From: a virus
Virus record (IMG/VR): IMGVR_UViG_3300035188_000705
Location: 1 to 22,934 of that record
Length of the DNA: 22,934 nucleotides
Direction: 5' to 3' (one strand)
Below the pieces are notes generated by a model, which made no database searches, was not told the origin of the DNA, and worked only from the letters and a program-made list of their open reading frames with translations. Below, in pieces: positions 3,057 through 22,923 of the stretch (its first letter is position 1; each line of letters starts with the position of its first letter). A program made the position numbers and the translations under genes.

Positions 3057-3917
3057 TTAACTGTTCTTGATGCCGTAAAGACGGAAGGTGCCGGTGGCCA
3101 TGTTTCCAGCAGACATATAAAACTGGAGCCCAGTTAAGGCCGAGGTGCTATCAATGTGCCATCCTGTTCCAGTATTACTAGAAACATCAGTGCTGCTACT
3201 ACCCAATCCAGCCGCACAAAAAGTTAATCCCTTATAGATAGAGGTACTTGACGGCATCGAAAAGAATATTTGCCCCATGCCTGTCCTAGCAGAAGCGTTA
3301 CCCATTCCAAATCGTATTAAGTCAATTTGAGTGGTTACGTAATTCGTGCTTGACGACGTGGTTGGGAATACATAAAACGACATGCTTGTGTAGTTGCTTG
3401 TTTGGTAACTACCATCAAGTCTAAGCCTACATCTAAGTTGAACGCTATCACTTGCAGGGCGCACGTTACTAAAAATAATTGCGTAGTTATCGTACGTGCT
3501 GTCGATACCCGTTTCAAGCACAACCGTTGCGCTATTACTGGCCGTTACACTGGCCAAGAAAACCCAAGACCCACCGCCCGCAGGAGCCGTGCTCTGCCAC
3601 GTCGTGCCGTTTGAAGTCAGCACGTTGCCGTTGGTGCCCGGAGCCACGACCTGGACAGCCGAGGTGCCGTTACCCAACAGAACATTGTTGGCTGTCAGTG
3701 AGGTTGCCCCAGTACCGCCGTTGCCTACAGGCAGCGTACCCGTCACCCCGGTAGCGAGGTTGACCGTGGGCACCGCACCAAACGACGGGGCGCTTGATCC
3801 ATTACTGAGCAGCACCTGACCCGCAGTGCCTGCGGACGTGAACGCCAGTTCTGTACCGTCACCATACCCCACACCACCAGCGGTGGGGGTGTTTGATCCA
3901 TCAATTGTTACGGGCAT
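3057..3917 (-). CDS. Tail fibre protein with shared collar and variable tip (286 aa)
   Basis: Residues 1-50 form a short glycine-rich N-terminal segment (GYGDGTELAFTSAGTAGQVL). Residues about 52-113 are the collar segment shared almost word for word with the 612-residue fibre: NGGTGATSLTANNVLLGNG (66-84) followed by VVAPGT-GNVLTSNGTTWQST (90-110). From residue 117 a different C-terminal domain begins (WVFLASVTASNSATVVLETG), beta-rich, with DNYAIIFSNVRP and ending FRLYGIKNS. This looks like a globular fibre tip. The DNA changes composition at the same place: 3301-3360 in the tip has 25 G+C in 60, lower than the collar. The ATG is preceded by CGGAG. A receptor-binding role is inference from modular structure. 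Confidence 0.7.
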   Translation of the reverse strand: MPVTIDGSNTPTAGGVGYGDGTELAFTSAGTAGQVLLSNGSSAPSFGAVPTVNLATGVTGTLPVGNGGTGATSLTANNVLLGNGTSAVQVVAPGTNGNVLTSNGTTWQSTAPAGGGSWVFLASVTASNSATVVLETGIDSTYDNYAIIFSNVRPASDSVQLRCRLRLDGSYQTSNYTSMSFYVFPTTSSSTNYVTTQIDLIRFGMGNASARTGMGQIFFSMPSSTSIYKGLTFCAAGLGSSSTDVSSNTGTGWHIDSTSALTGLQFYMSAGNMATGTFRLYGIKNS

Positions 3918-4187: not shown

Positions 4188-6026
4188 CTATCCCTTCACG
4201 AGAATCGAAGTTGCGCTCAATGCCAACCCCGCATATGGCTGAGTTGTTGCGGAACTATTTAGGGTTCCATCCGCAACAACATGATATCTGTTGCCCGCCG
4301 TCAACCCAGATTGAGCAGAGTTACGTGCCCCGACAACATTTATCGTTGCCGTTTGCCCGTTGGTATAAGACGCGCTCGAAAAACCAGCGAAGTTGGAGGA
4401 TGTAAGATTTGAGGTTATGTTGGTAAAAGTACGCCCTGCGACACCTGTGCTGCCATTGCCCGCACATACAACAAACTGTAGGTTTATAGGGTCTACAGTA
4501 GCAATTGGCTTATATGTCAACGTAGAGCCAGGGCTCACATCTTGCAAAGAACCAGTGCTACTTGAAGTGCCTGTTACAGTGACCGGAGCCGCATACACTA
4601 CGCCGCCACCATTACTGTTCTCGGCAATAAAAAAAGTAACATTCGATCCCGGCATCGTTCTGAACTGAGTTGAAAACGAAGTAAACGAATAGCCAATTGA
4701 GCCGGAAGGAGAACCAAAAGTAAGCGTATAACTTGACAAGGAGGCAACACGAATCACATAACTACTTCCCGAAACATAGGCAAAAACAAAATTCCCACTG
4801 GGTACATCATATCCTGTCGCTATTCTATAGTTGGAGTTGCCTGTCGTCTTTACAGAAGTGGCTGCGCTAAGGTTGGTAATTGTCACCCCCGACGAAGGTA
4901 ATTGCGCGACTCTTGCCCACAAATATTCGTTCGTGCCTTGATAAAAGAAAATTACCTTGCCTGTTGACGGTTCAGTTGTGACCGAAGTTGTAACGCCGTT
5001 ATAGTTGGCATTATCCAATCCAATATCACTGCCGTTATAAAAATAACCGGAACTGTCCGTGTATCCACAGAATGCGGCAACATAAGCATTTGCTATATAA
5101 TCGGTATACATCACAACGATTCTATTGACCGTTGCGTTATAGGCCGCGCTAAGTCCCTCATAGTTAGAGCCCGACGGGTTTATCGACGATAAGTTCTGAA
5201 CTACGCTTACTGTAAGTAAAGATGTTATTTTGCAGGAAGAATAATATAAACCTGTTCCAGTGCTGTTGATCCAAAAACACACATGAGTGTTTGAGGAGGG
5301 ATCATAAACGCTAGTGGTTGGTTTATTACTTTCGTTCCCGCTAACATTGGCACTGCTCTGTACGAGAGTGGCGGTGCCCCAAGAAATCGTGGAGCCCGAA
5401 ACAGTACCAACGACCGCATATAAATATTGGTTATTAGAATCCACGTAGTAGACCAAGACCGCGTTTCTCAGCGTGTCGTATGTCGCTGTGGGCTGCCGTA
5501 CATTACCAGTAGCTACCGCCCTCGACGCATAAGTTCCGGAGACATACGACCCGGCTGTTGCTGCCACCGCACTTACTGTGCCGTTGGAGTTGAGAACGAC
5601 GGTGCAACCGTTAGGGAGTGTTCCTGAAGCCACCGCCGTGATTGATCCGGCAGACGGCGCAGGGGCCGTGCTCTGCCATGTCGTGCCGTTGGAAGTCAGC
5701 ACGTTACCCGCCGTACCTGGCGCAACCACTTGCACAGCAGAGGTGCCGTTACCCAACAGAACATTGTTGGCCGTCAGGGAGGAAGCGCCTGTACCGCCGT
5801 TGGCAACCCCCAACGTCCCAGTAACTGCCGAAGCCAAATTAAGCCCGGAGGTGCTGCCCGTACCGCCTGATGCCACAGGCAGTGGCTGAGCAAGCGTCAC
5901 GACTTGATTGGTGCCGATGGTGACAGCGGTGGTCGTGCCGTTGGTCTGCAACACCAACTGGCCGGTGGTATCCCCAGAATTGACTAGGGCGGTGCTGGGG
6001 GAGGTGCCTGCGGAAATGGTACTCAT
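4188..6026 (-). CDS. Large tail fibre with seven-unit propeller-like repeat domain (612 aa)
   Basis: Residues 1-50 form a fibre-like N-terminus. Glycine turns SGGTG (53-57) and NGGTG (76-80) lead into the collar segment at about 65-121 that is shared with the 286-residue fibre. Residues about 180-540 hold seven related units of about 55 residues, starting near 183 (YDTLRNAV), 241 (YDPSSNTH), 296 (YNATVNRI), 351 (TEPSTGKV), 406 (YDVPSGNF), 458 (MPGSNVTF) and 511 (VDPINLQF). Each has a hydrophobic strand followed by a tyrosine-rich strand, as in a beta-propeller. Residues about 546-612 form a C-terminal domain (FAGFSSASYTNGQTATINV to LALSATSILVKG) of a type I recall closing such fibres. AAGGAG lies five bases before the ATG. 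Adhesion is inferred; blade count and fold need modelling. Confidence 0.72.
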   Translation of the reverse strand: MSTISAGTSPSTALVNSGDTTGQLVLQTNGTTTAVTIGTNQVVTLAQPLPVASGGTGSTSGLNLASAVTGTLGVANGGTGASSLTANNVLLGNGTSAVQVVAPGTAGNVLTSNGTTWQSTAPAPSAGSITAVASGTLPNGCTVVLNSNGTVSAVAATAGSYVSGTYASRAVATGNVRQPTATYDTLRNAVLVYYVDSNNQYLYAVVGTVSGSTISWGTATLVQSSANVSGNESNKPTTSVYDPSSNTHVCFWINSTGTGLYYSSCKITSLLTVSVVQNLSSINPSGSNYEGLSAAYNATVNRIVVMYTDYIANAYVAAFCGYTDSSGYFYNGSDIGLDNANYNGVTTSVTTEPSTGKVIFFYQGTNEYLWARVAQLPSSGVTITNLSAATSVKTTGNSNYRIATGYDVPSGNFVFAYVSGSSYVIRVASLSSYTLTFGSPSGSIGYSFTSFSTQFRTMPGSNVTFFIAENSNGGGVVYAAPVTVTGTSSSTGSLQDVSPGSTLTYKPIATVDPINLQFVVCAGNGSTGVAGRTFTNITSNLTSSNFAGFSSASYTNGQTATINVVGARNSAQSGLTAGNRYHVVADGTLNSSATTQPYAGLALSATSILVKG

Positions 6027-7040: not shown

Positions 7041-8033
7041 CTATTCCGTTGGAATCACAGTCCAGTTACCGGACTCCGCGTTGTCGATATTCTGCCAGTT
7101 GGCGTTCTCGGCGTCATCAATTAATGACCAGTAGAAAACCCCAAACGAGCCAACCCTGCCCATTGCTTGATTTCCGGTAATCGCCACCAGTCGTGCGCCA
7201 ACAGAGACTGACCCTACCGCCCCGCCTGCGGCCACACCCGTAAGGGCCATCACCTTGGTCGGGACTTCATTACCCAGCAAGCCCTGCGCACTCACGCCCG
7301 TGAGAGCAACGATACGCTCAGCCACAGTAACGGAGCCAACCGCTCCGTCCGCTTGGACACCCGTGACAGGGCGGGTGAACTCAACCGACCCGACTGCACC
7401 GGACGCAGCAACCCCGCTCAGGGCTACCGTTGTCGTTGGCGTGGTGTTGCCAACACTGCCAGTGGCCACCAACCCCGTTTCAGCATCAGACGTGTTGGGC
7501 GCAACCGTTCCGATTTGGCCAGAAGCAGCAACCCCTGTCAGCGCAATTTGCCGCTCTGCTACAGAAACGGAGCCAACCGCGCCATTTGCCTGAACCCCGG
7601 TAAGGAAGGCTTCCTTGTATATCTCGGTACCAACCGTGCCTACGGCGCCGGATGTGGACACCCCAGAAATGGCGACGACGTGCGCCGGGCCTACCGTTCC
7701 AACAGAGTTGTCCGCGTGGACATCCGTGAGTTCAGGGGTCGGCCCAGGGAAGACTATCTCGACGTTGCCATCGAGGAAGACGCCGCTCAGTTGTACAGAT
7801 TGCGACTGGACAACTGACCCAACAGCGCCGGAAGCAGCGACTCCCGTAAGGGCGGGGGCCTGAGCGGCAGCAACAGACCCTACCGCACCAGACGCGGCAA
7901 CACCCGTCAGCGCAACGGTGACGGATTTACCAACAGAACCTACGGCACCTGTTGCTTGGTTACCGGCGCCCTCTGCTTGAGAGCCGCCCCAAGTATTACT
8001 GCCCCAGGTGTCGTAACCCCATGCGGTAGCCAT
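7041..8033 (-). CDS. Virion repeat protein with about 14 LTGVxAxGAVGSV units (330 aa)
   Basis: After a Trp/Gly-rich start (WGYDTWGSNTWGG, residues 5-17) the protein consists of about fourteen tandem units of roughly 20 residues. The consensus is LTGVAASGAVGSV followed by a variable 6-9 residue linker. Units 4, 5 and 9 are the most diverged (for example LSGVFLDGNVEIV). The end switches to tryptophan-spaced repeats: WSLIDDAENANWQNIDNAESGNW (about 302-324). Regular short beta repeats of this sort suggest an elongated beta-solenoid or fibrous protein, probably a fibre base or appendage. I recall similar low-complexity repeat proteins in aquatic phages, with no established role. The ATG has a weak GGCGG site. 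The unit is about 60 bases, so copy number may vary between relatives. Confidence 0.65.
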   Translation of the reverse strand: MATAWGYDTWGSNTWGGSQAEGAGNQATGAVGSVGKSVTVALTGVAASGAVGSVAAAQAPALTGVAASGAVGSVVQSQSVQLSGVFLDGNVEIVFPGPTPELTDVHADNSVGTVGPAHVVAISGVSTSGAVGTVGTEIYKEAFLTGVQANGAVGSVSVAERQIALTGVAASGQIGTVAPNTSDAETGLVATGSVGNTTPTTTVALSGVAASGAVGSVEFTRPVTGVQADGAVGSVTVAERIVALTGVSAQGLLGNEVPTKVMALTGVAAGGAVGSVSVGARLVAITGNQAMGRVGSFGVFYWSLIDDAENANWQNIDNAESGNWTVIPTE

Positions 8034-10822: not shown

Positions 10823-11074
10823 TTAGTAGATGGTTGCCTTGCGAGCGCGAGCGGCGCCCACGCCGCGGACTTGCACCACGTCACCAGTAGAAGCCTTTTT
10901 GACCGGCTCGCTCATGGTCTTGCCCTGGGGGCCAGCCGTGTCAGCGCCAGAGGCAGAGATCTTGCCGCCCTTGGGCACGCCCTTCATGGCCATGCCGCCG
11001 TCCTTGAAACCCTTAACGGCGATGCCCTGACCACGCTTGGCCAGACCGCCCTTCTTGTAGTTGCCGTTCATCAT
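10823..11074 (-). CDS. Small basic glycine/lysine-rich protein, RGVG-type C-terminus (83 aa)
   Basis: The protein is short and basic, with repeated glycine turns: YKKGGLAKRG, GFKDGGMAMKG and VPKGGKIS in residues 6-40. It ends with VQVRGVGAARARKATIY. The same end pattern (RGVG-AR-5-Y) occurs in the 61-residue protein encoded at 11722-11907, so the two may be related or share a binding site. The start overlaps the upstream stop as ATGATGA, and either of two adjacent ATGs may be used. I recall such KGG-rich short proteins as hypothetical in aquatic phages. A virion or DNA-binding role would fit the charge, but is not shown. Confidence 0.58.
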   Translation of the reverse strand: MMNGNYKKGGLAKRGQGIAVKGFKDGGMAMKGVPKGGKISASGADTAGPQGKTMSEPVKKASTGDVVQVRGVGAARARKATIY

Positions 11075-12229: not shown

Positions 12230-12547
12230 TCAGGTCAGCAAGCCGAGATTACGCAGGGCTTTGACAACCTTGGCGAGGGTGTAGCCGTCGAACGTGGAGT
12301 CTTCGGTAACCGCAGTGCCAGTGCCTGCAACCACCGTGGCAGACGCCACAGCCGTCGTCGGGCGAGCGATCTTGGTGGCGCCGTAGAAACCGATGGTGTC
12401 GGTGCCAGCGTTGCCGATGCCCGTGTTGCCGGTAATTTCGACGTTGTTAAACGTCGAGGTGCCGGTGGTGGCGGTCACATTACCAGTGACGGTGCCGAGG
12501 AAGCCGTTGTCGGACTTGACTGGGCCTGTAAATCGAGTCTGAGCCAT
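12230..12547 (-). CDS. Head fibre-like small virion protein (105 aa)
   Basis: The ATG shares one base with the stop of the endonuclease gene (TAATG), and AAAGGA lies eight bases upstream, inside that gene. Residues 1-60 are Gly/Thr-rich with alternating beta character (GFLGTVTGNVTATTGTSTFNNVEITGN). The end is different: STFDGYTLAKVVKALRNLGLL (84-104), a helical pattern that I recall in phage head fibre or decoration proteins. The order, head gene then endonuclease then this gene, suggests it belonged directly behind the capsid gene before the endonuclease arrived. The head fibre assignment is moderate confidence. Confidence 0.55.
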   Translation of the reverse strand: MAQTRFTGPVKSDNGFLGTVTGNVTATTGTSTFNNVEITGNTGIGNAGTDTIGFYGATKIARPTTAVASATVVAGTGTAVTEDSTFDGYTLAKVVKALRNLGLLT

Positions 12548-13137
12548 TAGATGTTTCCTTTCAAGTGTGCATACTTGATAGCCAATCTACGAACTGAGCT
12601 TATGTCAGATCCCAGCCGTCTGGCCCGTTCTGCGTATGACAGGTCTGAATTGTCAAGAATGAACTTCAACTTGGCAACAAAATTTGGGTCCCCGTGAAAG
12701 CGTGCCATCTGCGCATTCGACAAAGTTTTTCTGTACTCGGTGCTTCGGTAATCAAAGGTCGTTGCCCGTCGCCCAAGTCGAATCCTCTGGCGGGACTCTT
12801 CGTTGTGGGTTTTACCACGCATCGGTGCTTTTGCAAAGTCGGCGATGTTGTACACGGTCGGCTCATCAAACCATGCCTCCCCCTGCAGAAACTGCTCCTC
12901 CAACATGTCAAGTTCCTCTAGGTCTTGGCACTCAATCTCGATGGCACCATAAAAAGCATCTGGGCCGTACTTGTTATAAGCATGCTGCAGGTGCGGATTG
13001 GTATGCTTGTTCCACCGCAAGAGCCGAAAGTGCTCTTTTATTCGCTTTTGGACCCGTTGTGACTGGCCAACATAGCACTGCCCCGTGGCGGTGTTTACGA
13101 TCTTGTAGAGCCCACAAATATCGACTTTGTATGGCAT
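12547..13137 (-). CDS. GIY-YIG homing-type endonuclease with NUMOD3-like motif (196 aa)
   Basis: The GIY-YIG nuclease core is visible: GLYKIVN (9-15) as the GIY strand, CYVGQS (21-26) as the YIG strand, then VQKRIKEH (29-36) with the basic helix. Acidic residues at about 80-81 (MLEEQFL) are candidates for the catalytic metal-binding Glu, and VYNI (95-98) holds the usual Asn. GKTHNEESRQRIRLGRR (108-124) looks like a NUMOD3 DNA-binding motif. Residues about 158-190 (DLSYAERARRLGSDISSVRRLAIKYAH) look like a helix-turn-helix of the NUMOD1 kind. The gene starts 6 bases after AAAAGGGGG and lies just past the capsid terminator. Free-standing genes of this type usually spread by cutting related phages lacking them. 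Activity is inferred. Confidence 0.85.
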   Translation of the reverse strand: MPYKVDICGLYKIVNTATGQCYVGQSQRVQKRIKEHFRLLRWNKHTNPHLQHAYNKYGPDAFYGAIEIECQDLEELDMLEEQFLQGEAWFDEPTVYNIADFAKAPMRGKTHNEESRQRIRLGRRATTFDYRSTEYRKTLSNAQMARFHGDPNFVAKLKFILDNSDLSYAERARRLGSDISSVRRLAIKYAHLKGNI

Positions 13138-16896: not shown

Positions 16897-17031
16897 TCAA
16901 GCCAGTTTTACCTTGTTGAACGCGTCTTTGCGATAAACATAGGTTACTTTTGGCTCGGCCGAGGGCTTTTTAACGGGCTTGGGACCGTCTTTGGGCACTT
17001 TGGGCGACGACTTGTTGGGTTTTTTGGACAT
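16897..17031 (-). CDS. Small Lys/Pro-rich protein overlapping the portal gene (44 aa)
   Basis: ATG at 17029-17031 follows AAGGAG by seven bases. The first 62 bases of the gene overlap the portal gene's end in another frame. The product is very basic: SKKPNKSSPKVPKDGPKPVK (2-21), then KPSAEPKVTYVYRKDAFNKV. It is probably disordered, with a beta-like end (KVTYVYR). The good ribosome site and the Lys/Pro-rich sequence suggest a real gene, perhaps one that binds DNA or the head. No family recognised. Confidence 0.62.
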   Translation of the reverse strand: MSKKPNKSSPKVPKDGPKPVKKPSAEPKVTYVYRKDAFNKVKLA

Positions 17032-19333
17032 CTGATGCTCCTTTTTGGGCCAATTTCGCTTGCTCGATGGCCATATCGTTGTTTTCCTTCTGCTGGTCGA
17101 AGGCCAAACGCTGCTGATCCATCGCCATCCGGGCCTGATCACGCTGACCGGCCTGCTGAATCTCTTGCTCCTTGAGCTTGACCAGCGGATCGGTCTGATC
17201 GCCCATCATCTGGGACTGCAGTTGCTTGACTTCCTGGAAGAACTGGGCCACTTTCAGGGCCACCATTGCCTCGCGCTGCAGGGCCGACACCAGTCCTTCT
17301 GGGTCCGTGCCGTACTGCTGGAACAACTCAGCTTCCACAGCCTCTTCTGCCTTCAGGCGGATGTGGTCAAACACGTGCTTCTGCAGATTCATGGCCACCT
17401 GCGGCATGCCACCAACGATAGGCGACATGCCAAACAGCAAGTGAGTCATGATGTGCGCATCATGCTGCTGGCCAGCGAAAGCCTTGAGCGGTGAGCCATC
17501 CAGCGCCTGCGAGTTCTCACTGGCCGGATCCTTGGGCTTGTCCACGTTCTGCGTGTTCAGGATCTGATCGATATCCCGCACGCCGATGGCCTCGTACATC
17601 CGGCGGTATGCCTCGTACATGTTGTGCATCTGCGGCGCGCTCTGCGCGAGCTGCAACTGCGTCTGCGCCATGGTGATGCGTTGCGCCACCGAGAAAATGT
17701 TGGGGTCCGACACCGGCAGCACATCGATCCGGTCATCAAAGTCTTTGGCTTTGATGAAGCGGCTCTCGCCAGGAACGTCGTACGGATACTCGGGCGGCAG
17801 GTACTCAGCGAAACCCTTGGCTAGAAGCTGGAACTCTAGCTTCTGTGCGTAGTGCAGGCGCTTGTGGATGGCCGACATCACGCTGGAGCCCTTCTCCAGC
17901 AGCGCAATCGTGGTGCCCACGGCAGCGTTTTGATTGCTGTCGCCCACCTGCATATCGGTGATGCTCGACAGACGACGGCCTGCATCCACGCAGAAGCCCA
18001 ACAGCGTGAACAGCGTCTGGCTCGGCTCCTTGTACGGCAGCGGCAGCAGCGACGAGTTGATCTCCGCGCCGCCCGTATCAATATCCCGGAACTCCCCAGG
18101 CTGCAGCGGCATGTCGTCGTTCATGATCCGCGCGCCCTTGGCCTTGAAGCCAGCAGGCAGGTTCGACAGCGTGCCCGCGTCGATCAACTGCTGCAGCGCG
18201 GCCGACGCCGTCTTGCTCAGGCCACCAACCAGATGCAGGAAGCCCAAGCCATACGCACCGGGGCCCTGAACCAGCAGGTAGTGCACGTAGTACTGGCAGC
18301 GACGATAGAGCTCGTCACCCTGCTTCCAGTTGCGGCGGATACCCACCACGTGGTTCGTGACCTCATCAATCGTCACGATGTACGGTAGCTTGATGCCCGT
18401 GGCCTCGCCGTCTTCCTTGTGCTCGAAGCCCGGCAGGTCATAGTCAACCTGGAACTCCAACAGCACGATCTCTTCATCATCACCACCCGTGGGCACGATG
18501 CCCACGACGCGGTCCTGCTCTTTCTGGATCACGTTTTGGCTTGTCTCAGCCACGGCCTGTGCTTGAGCGGTATCCAGATACTGGCCACGGACCACGGCCC
18601 GGCGATAGGCATTCACCGGCATCGTCACGCGGTGCGTGATCCGGGAGCATTCGCTCATCACGCTCGAGCCGTTGTACGGGATGTACAGATCCTCCGGCAG
18701 GATCAAGGCGCTCGTCATGCGGCCCTTGTCCTCGCAGTAGTACACCTTGCGGAAAGCCGAGCCGCCATATCCCACGTAGAACAGGAGCTGGTCGAAGTCC
18801 GGCGTGTACTCCTCCATCACCGTGGTGATCTGGTAGTTCATGAAGTCCTGCACGCGCTCGGCCTGCATCAACTTCTCACGCGTTTCCTTGCCCAGGACCT
18901 GCGTACGCACGGGCCCGCCCGCGGGCATCATTTCCTTCAGCGCCTGCGCCTGGAACTGCACCACGCTCTCGGTCAGCAAGGGATGCTGAACGGGGCACGC
19001 GCCCTTGAATGGCTTGGTGCGCTCCTCAAACGAGAAGCCCAGCAGCTTCAAGCCCTTGCCATACTGGTCTTCCCACTGCTTGCGCGAAGACTTGTCTGCC
19101 TCAAACAGAGCCATGAGCTCCGAGGACATGGACTGCAGCACAGACGGATCGACAACCTCAGCGAGGTTGCTGTCGAAGGGGACCTTGTCGTCCTCTTCCT
19201 TGCCAATCCCAATCACCACCTCGCCTGTTTCGGCATCGAACTCGATGTCCACATCAGGCAGCGCCTCTTCCATCTCGATTTCAACGTCACCTACAGGCAA
19301 CTCATCGACGGTGATGTTCTTTTCAATCGGCAT
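16970..19333 (-). CDS. Portal protein (787 aa)
   Basis: The N-terminus (1-60) is acidic. Residues about 80-150 give the typical portal start: KSSRKQWEDQYGKGLKLLG, ERTKPFKGACPVQHPLLTESVVQFQAQALKEMMPAGGPVR. The central wing follows, with DFDQLLFYVGYGGSAFRKVYY and DLYIPYN, and a mid-region with the ITDMQVGDSNQNAAVGTTIALLEKG pattern. The last 100 or so residues are Gln-rich coiled coil (KLKEQEIQQAGQRDQARMAMD) like the barrel of P22-type portals. AAGGAA is followed by a gap of five bases and ATG. Twelve copies normally form the DNA entry ring that the terminase docks to. Length is larger than many portals but usual for P22-like ones. Its 3' end overlaps a small gene. Confidence 0.87.
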   Translation of the reverse strand: MPIEKNITVDELPVGDVEIEMEEALPDVDIEFDAETGEVVIGIGKEEDDKVPFDSNLAEVVDPSVLQSMSSELMALFEADKSSRKQWEDQYGKGLKLLGFSFEERTKPFKGACPVQHPLLTESVVQFQAQALKEMMPAGGPVRTQVLGKETREKLMQAERVQDFMNYQITTVMEEYTPDFDQLLFYVGYGGSAFRKVYYCEDKGRMTSALILPEDLYIPYNGSSVMSECSRITHRVTMPVNAYRRAVVRGQYLDTAQAQAVAETSQNVIQKEQDRVVGIVPTGGDDEEIVLLEFQVDYDLPGFEHKEDGEATGIKLPYIVTIDEVTNHVVGIRRNWKQGDELYRRCQYYVHYLLVQGPGAYGLGFLHLVGGLSKTASAALQQLIDAGTLSNLPAGFKAKGARIMNDDMPLQPGEFRDIDTGGAEINSSLLPLPYKEPSQTLFTLLGFCVDAGRRLSSITDMQVGDSNQNAAVGTTIALLEKGSSVMSAIHKRLHYAQKLEFQLLAKGFAEYLPPEYPYDVPGESRFIKAKDFDDRIDVLPVSDPNIFSVAQRITMAQTQLQLAQSAPQMHNMYEAYRRMYEAIGVRDIDQILNTQNVDKPKDPASENSQALDGSPLKAFAGQQHDAHIMTHLLFGMSPIVGGMPQVAMNLQKHVFDHIRLKAEEAVEAELFQQYGTDPEGLVSALQREAMVALKVAQFFQEVKQLQSQMMGDQTDPLVKLKEQEIQQAGQRDQARMAMDQQRLAFDQQKENNDMAIEQAKLAQKGASDVQKTQQVVAQSAQRRSQAR
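17038..17043 (-). promoter_or_regulatory. Shine-Dalgarno site within the portal gene that fixes the 44-aa start
   Basis: AAGGAG on the minus strand ends seven bases before ATG 17029-17031. It lies inside the portal coding sequence, 71 bases before the portal stop codon. It is the only good site for the small Lys/Pro-rich gene, and rules out the longer reading of that frame starting at 17142. Confidence 0.65.
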
Positions 19334-19335
19334 GG

Positions 19336-22300
19336 TTATTCCTTCGACTTCGTCACGTTTTTATACGCTTGCAGGATGAGGGGGCTGACTGCGTCCTCAA
19401 GATAGCGGCGGCCTTTGGTTGCATCCATCACCTTGTCCATGTCAATTTCCACAAAACTAGAGCCGCCATTTAAACGCCGCACCTCGTTGCGAACGGCCTG
19501 TGCCAAGTCGAGGCTTATAGGCAGAGAATTGGACCGCAAGATATGCGAAATAAATGCCGTGGCGGCCGTCAAGCCGATCCCATCCAGGTTGTCCACCGCG
19601 TTTTCCAGATCGTACTGGCGGTCGAGATCCTTGACAAACTGCTGAACTTTGCCGACGTACGGCTCTTTCTGCAACTTCGTCTCGTTGTTGAAGCCTTTGA
19701 TCTCCGTAATGCTGACGTTTGCGGGCTGTGACCGAGCCCATTGCTGGAACTCCGGGGAGTTCAAGACGGCATCCTCGTAGTAACTGGACCAGGGGTCCAT
19801 GCCCTGAACGGCGGCAGGTTCCCCTTCAAACCGGAGGAAATCCTTGATGCTCGGCTCTGCACGGTTGATTGTGAGTTGCGCCTTGGGCCGTGCTTTGCTA
19901 TCAAACAGGATCGATAGGCGGTTCTCGCCACTGCCGTAGTCCAAAGCATGGTGCTCTTCTCGCGTACACCAGTTCCCGTCACAGCCCACATCCTGAACAA
20001 TTTCACGCACGCGGGGATACGCCTCCAGGTCGGGGGCATTGATCATCACATACCCGTCGTCAAAGACTTTCTTATCAAGGCTTGCATCTTCAAACAGGGC
20101 TTTAGACGCCATGCGCTGGCGCGTTTCCTGCCGCCATGCGCCAAACTGGGCTACGCGCTCAGATGCCTGTGCGGGGGTTAGACCCTCCAACGCGGAGTCC
20201 ATAAGACGATACTGCTCAGGAACTGTTTTTGGCGGCTGGCCGTAGGCGCTGTACTCCTTGGGCTGCTGACGCATTTCCAACATCGATTTTTTTAGTCCCC
20301 TCAAGTCCATATGCCCCAGTCCCGGCTGGAAGCTATAAAGGGGCATTGACGGGTCTTCGGTCACAAACCGGCGAAGCCCTGGCGGAACCATCTCCATCTT
20401 CATCGACGCAACGTCTTGAATTTCTGTCGGATAAATGCCCAAGTCTGAGTAGTTCTCCATTATCCTGCCCAGCTGAGTCTTGGCCATCCCGGATTCAGGG
20501 AAACCGGCGCCCTTTCGAGTCAGCCGAAGCACTTCCCCCGTCCAATCACGACTTGATAGCTCGTCTGCAGGCGTAAGGGCCCCAAGTGGGAAAATGTGAG
20601 ATTTGCGCCCCTCTTCCGCAGCTTTTACAAACGGGTCATTTTCTGTGCCAATGTCCCGGCGCAAGTACATGGCGATCTTCTGATCGAACCACTTATTCAG
20701 CACCGGATCGGACGTATTGCTGAGGTTATCCATGACGTACGCTGACACCGGATCGCCGTACTGTTCCACCGTCTGATAGTTGGTTTCCGGGCCAGTTACA
20801 AACCGGCGCTCTTGAATGAAGCTGCCGCCCGGCAGCCGCACCGCACCACGCTGCGAGCCCATGCTGCCACTGAGAAGGGGGTCCCGCTCCACGGGCCGCG
20901 TGGCCATCTCTGCCAACATCTTGGCCGCCTGCCCGGTCTTCTCCACACCCTTGACCGCGGTCCGCGTAGCACCAGCCGGGTTCACCAGATTGCTGCCAAT
21001 ATCCCCCGCCGTGTAGAAGGCCCGCAATGTCGGATCCGTCGGCTCAGGAAACGCCACGCCCGCTTGACGCGACTTTTCCTTCAACCATTCGCTGCCCATG
21101 ACGGGCTTCTCGACGTTGTAGCCCAGCGGCCGCATCAACAGAGTAGCGATATCCACCGGCGCACCGACGATGTTCTGCGGCAACAAGGTCGCGCCCTTGG
21201 CTGCTTCCGCCTGCGCTTGCCCAGACTGCAGCGCCTCCGTCACGCGCCCCGCCTTGCGGCCCTTGCCAGAACTGGGGACGATACCGAACGCAGCCTTGCT
21301 TGCACGCTCCAATTCCTCGGCGGTGGGCTCATCGCTGACCTCACCGCCTTCCTTAAAACCCAGCTTGCCGCGGATGAAACCCATCACGCCTTCAGGCTTC
21401 TCAGGAATCGGCGTGTACGGACTCAAATCCCGCGCATCCAAGCGCGTTTGACGCAACCCAGTCAGCGAGTTGTACACCTCGCGGACTTTCTTGTCCTTGA
21501 AGATCGTATTGCGCAGCGTCGGATCCTTCGTCAGATCCGTGTTCCGCGACTGCTCCACCGCAGCCAACTCAGCGAGCTGCTCAAACAGCAGGTTCGGCAA
21601 CAACGGGCCCTGAAACTCCCGCTGCCTTGGATTGAAGTACCCGCTCGTGATCCCATAAGTGTTGCGCAAGTAGTCCTGCAGCCCCAGCGCCTCACTAACA
21701 AACCGGCGCCGCGCCTTTGGATCCCCCATCAACTCATCAAACTTTGTGTTGATGGAGCGCGCATTTCCCAACCCACGCTTGGCCAGCACATGCTCAGCCT
21801 CATGCGCCCGCGTGTGCAACTCATCCATCGCAGGGCGACCCGGCTTCAGGAACACCACGTCCTGCGTCGGCACACCCTTTTCGCCCCTCAACGCCGACAC
21901 CGCATACCCACGAGTGTTGGAATCCAAGTCCTGCAAAGACTTGTCATACATGGCCCGCGCGCCAGGAATTGTGGACAACGTGTACGGCAAAGAAACACTG
22001 GCCGGTGCAGGATACAAAGCCGTCACCCTGCGTGGATCTGCTTGAATAATGGCCTGCTGCGTTTCCTCATCCAACTTTCTAAAATCCCGCAACCGGGACT
22101 GCGCCGTGCCCTGATTGACACTTGGTCCGCGGTCCGCGACGATCTCTTGGGCAGCCACTTCCCCGCCTTCGGCATAAGCAGGCGGGGTGTCATAACCCAC
22201 AGCTATAAAGCCACCCTCGGCCGCGCGCACCGGTTCAGGCTCCGAACCGAACGGGGAGCTGTACGGCATTGCCAACATCTCCGGCGATACCTTGCGGCTG

Positions 22301-22923
22301 CTACTGGCCAGCCACTGCTGCGCCACACTCGGGCCGCGCTCGTCATACTCCCGGCCCTTTTCCTCCCGCTCCGCTTCATCAGCCAAGAAGGACAGCGCCA
22401 GAGCAGCCTGATAACTCGTACCAAGGTCCGCGGTCCGCTGTACAGGAAACGCAAGAGGGCCACCACGGGCCGTCGGAGGCCGCTGAGCAGGCGCTGGTGT
22501 TGGCGAAGCAGCAGGCTTTGACGACCTGTCCGCTACCCGCTCACCACCCAACGTCGATTTGATCTTGTCAATATAACTGCGCGTCTCAGACGGCAACTTC
22601 TTCGGATCCGCACCAGCAGCAATCCACTTGTCCGTGTTCCCCGGACCCCAGTTGTACGCAGCCAGAGCCTTATCCAGCTCACCATACTTGTCCAGCATGG
22701 ACTTCAAATAGTCCCGACCAACACGCGCCAACTCCTCCGGCGACCTATCCTGCGCCGGAGCTACTCCATATCCAGGCGACTTCGCCGTCCCCGGCATCAC
22801 CTGCATCTCACCCTGAGCACCCTTGGACGAAGTCAACAAGTTGCCCTGCTTGTCAAAACGCCGACCACCACTCTCGGCCAGCATCACCGCATTCACAATC
22901 GCATCAAAAGAATCCTGGGCCAT
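19336..22923 (-). CDS. Multidomain virion protein: lytic transglycosylase, HExxH motif, WCT-type module (1195 aa)
   Basis: Residues 1-125 form an SLT-type lytic transglycosylase: catalytic Glu17 in AESGG, GEMQVMP (38-44), AYNWGPGN (89-96) and a closing YIDKI. This domain opens peptidoglycan. A Pro/Ala linker (135-155) and repeated EGG turns (AAEGGF, YAEGGEV, FKEGGEV) separate later parts. At 374-378 there is HEAEH, an HExxH zincin motif, with FEQLAELAAVE (447-457) as a candidate third-ligand region. Residues about 580-665 are hydrophobic to amphipathic. At about 979-1020 comes CDGNWCTREE, then DYGSGENRLSILFD and RPKAQLTI, followed by ITEIKGFNN (1072-1080); I recall this module in large phage proteins and it resembles PcfJ-like domains. 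It is likely ejected with the DNA. Functions beyond SLT are inference. No clear ribosome site. Confidence 0.78.
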   Translation of the reverse strand: MAQDSFDAIVNAVMLAESGGRRFDKQGNLLTSSKGAQGEMQVMPGTAKSPGYGVAPAQDRSPEELARVGRDYLKSMLDKYGELDKALAAYNWGPGNTDKWIAAGADPKKLPSETRSYIDKIKSTLGGERVADRSSKPAASPTPAPAQRPPTARGGPLAFPVQRTADLGTSYQAALALSFLADEAEREEKGREYDERGPSVAQQWLASSSRKVSPEMLAMPYSSPFGSEPEPVRAAEGGFIAVGYDTPPAYAEGGEVAAQEIVADRGPSVNQGTAQSRLRDFRKLDEETQQAIIQADPRRVTALYPAPASVSLPYTLSTIPGARAMYDKSLQDLDSNTRGYAVSALRGEKGVPTQDVVFLKPGRPAMDELHTRAHEAEHVLAKRGLGNARSINTKFDELMGDPKARRRFVSEALGLQDYLRNTYGITSGYFNPRQREFQGPLLPNLLFEQLAELAAVEQSRNTDLTKDPTLRNTIFKDKKVREVYNSLTGLRQTRLDARDLSPYTPIPEKPEGVMGFIRGKLGFKEGGEVSDEPTAEELERASKAAFGIVPSSGKGRKAGRVTEALQSGQAQAEAAKGATLLPQNIVGAPVDIATLLMRPLGYNVEKPVMGSEWLKEKSRQAGVAFPEPTDPTLRAFYTAGDIGSNLVNPAGATRTAVKGVEKTGQAAKMLAEMATRPVERDPLLSGSMGSQRGAVRLPGGSFIQERRFVTGPETNYQTVEQYGDPVSAYVMDNLSNTSDPVLNKWFDQKIAMYLRRDIGTENDPFVKAAEEGRKSHIFPLGALTPADELSSRDWTGEVLRLTRKGAGFPESGMAKTQLGRIMENYSDLGIYPTEIQDVASMKMEMVPPGLRRFVTEDPSMPLYSFQPGLGHMDLRGLKKSMLEMRQQPKEYSAYGQPPKTVPEQYRLMDSALEGLTPAQASERVAQFGAWRQETRQRMASKALFEDASLDKKVFDDGYVMINAPDLEAYPRVREIVQDVGCDGNWCTREEHHALDYGSGENRLSILFDSKARPKAQLTINRAEPSIKDFLRFEGEPAAVQGMDPWSSYYEDAVLNSPEFQQWARSQPANVSITEIKGFNNETKLQKEPYVGKVQQFVKDLDRQYDLENAVDNLDGIGLTAATAFISHILRSNSLPISLDLAQAVRNEVRRLNGGSSFVEIDMDKVMDATKGRRYLEDAVSPLILQAYKNVTKSKE
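20953..20966 (-). repeat. Partial GCGGACC repeat copy, inside the transglycosylase gene
   Basis: The plus-strand sequence gaccgcggtccgcg shares ten contiguous bases (cggtccgcg with its preceding base) with the GGTCCGC tandem copies at 22124 and 22425. It encodes the Arg-Thr-Ala segment near residue 654. It is the weakest of the four related sites and may be due to chance in GC-rich DNA. Confidence 0.45.
22124..22137 (+). repeat. Tandem GGTCCGC heptamer (14 bp), copy 1
   Basis: The plus strand reads ggtccgcggtccgc, two exact copies of the heptamer GGTCCGC. It lies in the coding sequence of the multidomain protein, where the minus strand encodes ALA-Asp-Arg-Gly-Pro. An exact second copy is at 22425-22438. 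Confidence 0.75.
22425..22438 (+). repeat. Tandem GGTCCGC heptamer (14 bp), copy 2
   Basis: This is an exact copy of the 14-base sequence at 22124-22137, 301 bases away. Here the minus strand encodes Arg-Thr-Ala-Asp, a different reading frame from the first copy, so protein-level selection does not explain the identity. Confidence 0.75.

Follow-up and report, generated by a model that had tools for sequence, protein, structure and literature searches.

Introduction

Phage polyvalent proteins combine several domains with unrelated activities in a single polypeptide, and it has been proposed that multidomain phage proteins encoded near the portal gene are packaged and injected (Iyer et al., 2017; PMC5512222). 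In phage T7, the large protein gp16 is thought to exit the virion before the DNA (PMC8954989), and temperate phages encode MuF polymorphic toxins in the region of the head genes (PMC5576092). A further group relevant here is the PcfJ family (PF14284) of conjugative plasmids. Here we describe a modular protein of 1195 residues encoded in IMG/VR record IMGVR_UViG_3300035188_000705, a 22,934-base record of an uncultured aquatic phage, which is referred to in full as the window. The gene (19336..22923, minus strand) appears to fill a variable cargo slot between the terminase and portal genes in a group of aquatic phages. Its product is probably packaged in the head and is the first to be ejected, as a swappable cargo of the polyvalent type. 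Residue numbers below are those of the 1195-residue protein.

The cargo gene and its slot

A preliminary description of the window, made from the sequence alone, had placed a reading frame of 1195 residues at 19336-22923, ahead of the portal gene. Both points were confirmed, with the addition that the frame lies on the minus strand, which had not been given. The portal gene (16970..19333, minus strand; phrog_1216, 2e-37) is the next gene downstream and begins 2 nucleotides past the stop codon of the cargo gene. The cargo gene starts with an ATG at 22923, 11 bases from the window edge, and this start is supported because the open frame of the relatives begins only 19 codons earlier. The portal of phage DSL-LC04 is 61% identical to that of the window.

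In the related loci holding both genes, TerL was located upstream of the portal gene in 126 of 126 cases, with recognised cargo modules between the two in nearly all of them, although these tallies are biased, since the loci were gathered by searching for these same modules. About 20 module combinations were found in the slot among the related loci. Its content may be just a zincin of 265 residues, and in CRP-902 the slot is empty. A middle region of the window protein (residues 535-672; 20908..21321, minus strand) is kept across most cassette combinations.

Residues 1-125 (22549..22923, minus strand) form an SLT lytic transglycosylase domain, in agreement with the preliminary description. Residues 10-105 matched PF01464 with 46.5 bits (gathering cut-off 21.3; E 3.3e-12), and phmmer matched the region to Slt70 (1qsa, E 2.8e-6). 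The domain carries the motifs GAQGEMQVMPGT and AAYNWGPGN, and in GAQGEMQ the Leu of GAxGLMQ is replaced by Glu. Glu17 (AESGG), which is outside the PDB alignment, is likely the catalytic residue judging by the motif pattern. Among 13 larger relatives, no genome had more than one SLT domain; it was in the slot protein in five and elsewhere in G009 and a Caulobacter phage. In G009, the slot contains only a zincin and the SLT is in an 839-residue open reading frame elsewhere. The limit of one SLT per genome suggests that the SLT in the slot acts as the wall enzyme of the virion, though six of these records were without it. In the relatives L046 (9944-13840), L030 (3-3467), and L054 (2749-7143), the SLT is followed by an additional segment that shows a GDSL...GLHLT pattern; this segment reads like an SGNH hydrolase and had no Pfam match.

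The N-terminal position of the SLT on a polypeptide as large as an internal protein, as in T7 gp16 (PMC8954989), and the conserved middle region would also fit a component of an ejectosome, whose structural C-terminal domains form a DNA conduit and exert no effector function. We consider such a role improbable, since the protein has no strong hydrophobic segment (the best 19-residue Kyte-Doolittle mean was 1.19) and the C-terminal modules are swapped or absent among relatives, down to the lone zincin or the empty slot, which is unlike an essential conduit. This variability argues against a pure conduit role and, together with the occurrence of at most one SLT per genome and a zincin adjoining the portal gene, favours an ejected cargo of the polyvalent type.

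The zincin-like cassette

Conservation and a confident AlphaFold2 model support the assignment of residues 281-520 (21364..22083, minus strand) to a zincin-like metallopeptidase cassette of an uncatalogued family, for which peptidase activity is predicted. The HEAEH motif (residues 374-378; 21790..21804, minus strand) had been proposed to form a zincin site together with an Ala/Glu-rich helix, and the analysis of relatives, gathered by three scans, upheld this proposal. Both His and both Glu residues of HExEH, as well as Glu448 and Glu457, were invariant in 50 diverse sequences, and HExxH arose in just 0.5% of shuffles of the cargo protein. HEAEH is predicted to provide two zinc ligands and the general base. 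The best candidate for the third ligand, from conservation and the model, is Glu448 (21580..21582, minus strand) on the next long helix; the Glu/Ala helix LLFEQLAELAAVEQ occupies residues 445-458.

The model (predicted local distance difference test, pLDDT, 87; predicted template modelling score 0.82) consists of three strands (model residues 49-53, 65-68, and 82-85), the HEAEH helix (91-111), and a long Glu helix (160-186) bearing Glu174, which is Glu448 of the full protein. The pLDDT exceeded 90 around the HEAEH and Glu helix elements. In the model, HEAEH thus lies within a zincin-like arrangement of the expected strands and helices, and this layout agrees with that of the polyvalent metallopeptidases described by Iyer et al. 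(PMC5512222). The VIA-align rows for the model were mostly zincins, with anthrax lethal factor as the best (Z 6.3, below the value of 8 under which the tool warns that a common arrangement may be reflected), followed by PprI/IrrE and PPEP. A plain Foldseek search gave no match below E 1, and the zincins were grouped only by VIA. No Pfam or PHROG family scored over the cut-off; weak matches were obtained with M78, M90, and DUF6782 peptidases.

The same domain was found as a separate gene in about 40 distinct contigs, mostly 250-300 residues long and usually 4 nucleotides before the portal gene. In L050 and L064, such a stand-alone zincin is located between the SLT/WCT gene and the portal gene, so the window protein is the fused form of genes that are adjacent elsewhere. 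The zincin was not found in any phage of the annotated collection, and scans of bacterial genomes detected it in two contigs of metagenome-assembled genomes (MAGs) only. A zincin relative with 39% identity is present on L215, an 84-kb contig of a Chitinophagales MAG; this contig may be phage DNA that was binned wrongly, or it may point to the host.

Cassette exchange at Gly-Gly motifs

Comparison with the related locus L001 revealed the borders of the zincin cassette. The DNA of the two is 93% identical up to codon 253 and 99% identical from codon 526. Between these points, the zincin cassette is replaced in L001 by one similar to DUF6973; L063 and L014 have matches to this family over the Pfam cut-off. 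Both breakpoints coincide with the first Gly of the motifs AEGGEV and KEGGEV. The left junction, at Gly253, is within a linker with two Gly-Gly motifs, AAEGGFIA and YAEGGEVA (residues 236-256; 22156..22218, minus strand), and a segment of about 110 residues present in close relatives is missing from the window between these two motifs. At the right junction, GFKEGGEVSD (residues 521-530; 21334..21363, minus strand), homology resumes at codon 526, and the sequence matches the C-terminal Gly-Gly tail of stand-alone zincins. In the comparisons of L001 with L003 and of the window with L002, the breaks likewise fall on motifs of this kind. The modules are therefore interchangeable cassettes joined at Gly-Gly motifs, which adds to what the preliminary description had recognised.

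A Gly-Gly motif was present within 30 residues of the ends of fused zincins in 34 of 44 cases (9.3 expected) and within 30 residues of the C-termini of large slot proteins in 68 of 80 (15.6 expected). A fixed DNA recombination word was looked for at the joints and not found (GGCGGT, GGTGGC, and GGCGGG occur); since the Gly-Gly codons vary, it is the protein motif and not a DNA word that is kept. This bears on the idea that the joints are mere flexible linkers that aid recombination at the DNA level and have no function in the protein. The breakpoints do fall on Gly-Gly codons, and Gly-rich linkers tolerate fusion, but the nucleotide word varies while the protein motif recurs, and Gly-Gly also ends unfused, stand-alone proteins with the defined tails GGxVERxxxDxRxYL or GGxVxxAGNxKLI. 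We regard this idea, which is compatible with the cargo explanation, as possible but doubtful.

The tail GG[MAP][VI]ERxxxDxRxYL is common to unrelated slot proteins of L050, L063, L067, L012, and L046, and in other phages the stand-alone zincins have the tail GGxVxxAGNxKLI. Such shared tails point to a possible packaging or processing signal. Motifs of a similar style, KKGGLAK and FKDGGMA, were also observed in a small basic protein of 83 residues encoded in the window (10823-11074, minus strand), and motifs like these crowd the N-terminus of the DSL-LC04 cargo protein.

Gly-Gly-x sites occur in the polyproteins of adenovirus and African swine fever virus. By analogy, the zincin might mature the virion or process its own protein by cleaving the polyprotein, and perhaps further virion proteins, at the Gly-Gly joints before the pieces are packaged. 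The excess of Gly-Gly motifs at module ends over random expectation, their retention in the protein despite varying codons, and the location of the zincin gene directly before the portal gene in about 40 contigs are consistent with such a role, and autoprocessing by metallopeptidases has been proposed (Iyer et al., 2017; PMC5512222). However, Gly-Gly joints and tails are present with no detectable zincin in DSL-LC04, the genome of which is complete, and in two relatives of about 50 kb, so that the zincin is not the obligatory processing protease of these phages. In addition, it is replaced by other cassettes in relatives that are 93-99% identical outside it. The self-processing explanation thus appears unlikely, and its strict form, with the zincin as an obligatory Gly-Gly protease, was set aside.

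The WCT module and its relation to PcfJ

The WCT module (residues 945-1125; 19549..20091, minus strand) is preceded by a helical region (residues 694-943; 20095..20844, minus strand). Four motifs noted earlier near the C-terminus were found in place: CDGNWCT (residues 981-987; 19963..19983, minus strand), DYGSG (995-999), RPKAQL (1012-1017), and ITEIKG (1072-1077; 19693..19710, minus strand). The W-C-T triplet was invariant in 43 relatives. The module had no Pfam or PHROG match, and PF14284 did not match the window protein at E up to 10.

The relation of the module to a known family became visible through DSL-LC04, which in the same gene slot encodes P0002, a protein annotated as PcfJ-like (36.5 bits with the PcfJ Pfam model, cut-off 25). 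The WCT profile aligned with P0002 over 348 columns (hhalign probability 99.6%, E 3.4e-24), and hidden Markov models (HMMs) of the two halves of the profile matched it at 6e-10 and 7e-20, the latter covering the helical region at residues 694-943. A PcfJ-type HMM matched P0002 as well as plasmid PcfJ proteins. Relatives with a closer PcfJ module in the C-terminal slot reached E 8e-4 with PF14284, which is below the cut-off. A first direct hhalign comparison of 14 WCT with 6 PcfJ-type slot sequences had given a probability of just 3.5%, and the link emerged with a deeper alignment and the DSL-LC04 bridge. In the search of the WCT model against viral models (BFVD), the best matches were mainly PcfJ-like proteins. 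In the hhalign and HMM alignments, CDGNWCT corresponds to HCVGGYC of PcfJ proteins, and ITEIKG corresponds to the PcfJ strand-turn-helix Q-h-[KR]-G-x-x-N and is placed like GNAT motif A. These alignments support the WCT module as a divergent relative of the PcfJ family of conjugative plasmids. The likeness to proteins of conjugative elements, suggested in the preliminary description, was thereby substantiated, and we count the expected homology of residues 970-1085 to a polyvalent-type module as found through this link.

No copy of the WCT module was found in the bacterial genome scans. In two plasmids (L217 and L219), pcfJ directly follows an anti-CRISPR gene of the AcrIIA9 family, and AcrIIA9 contains a PcfK domain (PMC6739104); this neighbourhood gives indirect support for a defence-related role. 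L015 (3077-7492) has in its C-terminal slot a further module that is neither WCT nor PcfJ and contains the string HFHELQSDLSRD.

The AlphaFold2 model of the WCT module (pLDDT 89) was compared with PDB structures. Foldseek ranked ESCO1 first (probability 0.99, E 0.012), followed mostly by GNAT-bearing chains, and 48 of the top 50 VIA rows were named acetyltransferases or their complexes. The best VIA row was Hat1 (Z 6.8, 126 residues, 3.9 Å), and the predicted fold spans residues ~932-1182. No sequence match to GNAT acyltransferases was obtained for the module; the bridge protein of DSL-LC04 has QIKGKGN, which fits GNAT motif A. We treat the GNAT assignment as a lead, because a Z under 8 can reflect a common arrangement.

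A broader and speculative proposal, which as a whole is rather unlikely, is that PcfJ-like and WCT modules belong to an unrecognised family of acyltransferases with a GNAT fold, sent along with the DNA of phages and conjugative plasmids into recipients, where they would disarm defence. In the phage group studied here, these modules would serve as interchangeable warheads together with the uncatalogued zincin family, joined at Gly-Gly motifs that double as packaging or cleavage signals.

Proposed role of the cargo protein

SLT domains cut peptidoglycan, and zincins hydrolyse peptide bonds. The product of the slot gene would most likely be packaged in the head and ejected ahead of the DNA. Its predicted N-terminal SLT enzyme would first open the peptidoglycan, and the middle region and long linkers may then carry the other modules through the channel. 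In the cytoplasm, the zincin might cut a host protein or release modules, and the WCT module, with its acyltransferase-like fold, might modify or bind a host target and thereby allow the incoming DNA to survive. The trading of zincin, DUF6973-like, WCT, PcfJ, and other cassettes at Gly-Gly joints would be as expected of arms-race cargo.

Several observations weigh against this proposal. The structural Z scores of the zincin (6.3) and GNAT (6.8) comparisons are in the range below 8 where common arrangements score too. No solved relative is available, and searches of the zincin and WCT profiles against PDB sequences gave nothing relevant. The window motif E-I-K-G-F-N (EIKGFNN) is not the GNAT motif A, Q/R-x-x-G-x-G/A. 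The zincin was not detected in DSL-LC04 or in three other cultured or named relatives, and it may serve virion assembly in the phages that have it. Finally, no SLT was found in 6 of the 13 compared records, and the domain is therefore not universal in the group.

Of the preliminary interpretation as a whole, the SLT, the zincin, and the link of the WCT module with conjugative elements stood, and its view of the protein as ejected and active in the host is kept here as the probable explanation. PcfJ is widespread in plasmids and phages, and a literature search turned up no assigned function for it; the phage relative described here, with its confident model and acyltransferase-like predicted fold, gives this family a testable biochemistry. 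With the slot between TerL and the portal gene as a marker, effectors likely to be delivered by virions can be gathered from uncultured phages, and the Gly-Gly joints provide a rule for reading module borders.

Other features of the window

After the portal gene, the gene order comprises a GroES-like gene, a phrog_28737 gene (scaffold by position), and the gene of the major head protein. Directly downstream of the latter, 12547-13137 (minus strand) encodes a GIY-YIG endonuclease (PF01541, 26.9 bits); a NUMOD3 motif was also present below threshold, and the product looks like a homing endonuclease. A 177-nucleotide direct repeat, 80% identical, was found at 3579-3755 and 5658-5834, within the separate tail-region genes 3057-3917 and 4188-6026; it represents an N-terminal block common to putative tail fibre proteins. 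At the tail end of the structural cluster, 7041-8033 (minus strand) encodes a protein of 330 residues with imperfect repeats of the LTGVxAxGAVGSV type.

Comparison with known systems

The window protein resembles T7 gp16 in having an N-terminal SLT on a protein of more than 1100 residues (PMC8954989). Unlike gp16, it is encoded before the portal gene and carries swappable C-terminal cassettes, and no segment with the hydrophobicity of gp16-type transmembrane helices was found in it. With the MuF polymorphic toxins (PMC5576092), it has in common variable C-terminal modules and a location in the head-gene region. In contrast to these toxins, it showed no MuF domain match and is followed by no immunity open reading frame, as the portal gene begins 2 nucleotides later, and its WCT module was not found in bacterial genomes.

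By profile comparison through DSL-LC04, the WCT module is homologous to PcfJ-like proteins, and the two can be aligned at the C-x-G-x-[YW] and [QE]-h-[KR]-G-x-x-N positions. The differences are the change of H-C-V-G-x-Y to C-D-G-N-W-C-T, the replacement of Q by E, and some tens of residues inserted before ITEIKG.

The protein shares with phage polyvalent proteins (Iyer et al., 2017; PMC5512222) the presence of domains with unrelated activities in one polypeptide, a zincin metallopeptidase, a lysozyme-like domain, and a neighbourhood of packaging genes; it contains at least two domains of disparate activity and follows the TerL-cargo-portal order. It differs from them in that its zincin and WCT families have no Pfam or PHROG model and its joints are Gly-Gly motifs, whereas PcfJ has 0 occurrences in the text of PMC5512222. 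In addition, its zincin family also stands alone in the same slot. The window protein is thus a variation on the polyvalent proteins, marked by two module families that are uncatalogued, a link to PcfJ, and a clear rule of cassette exchange.

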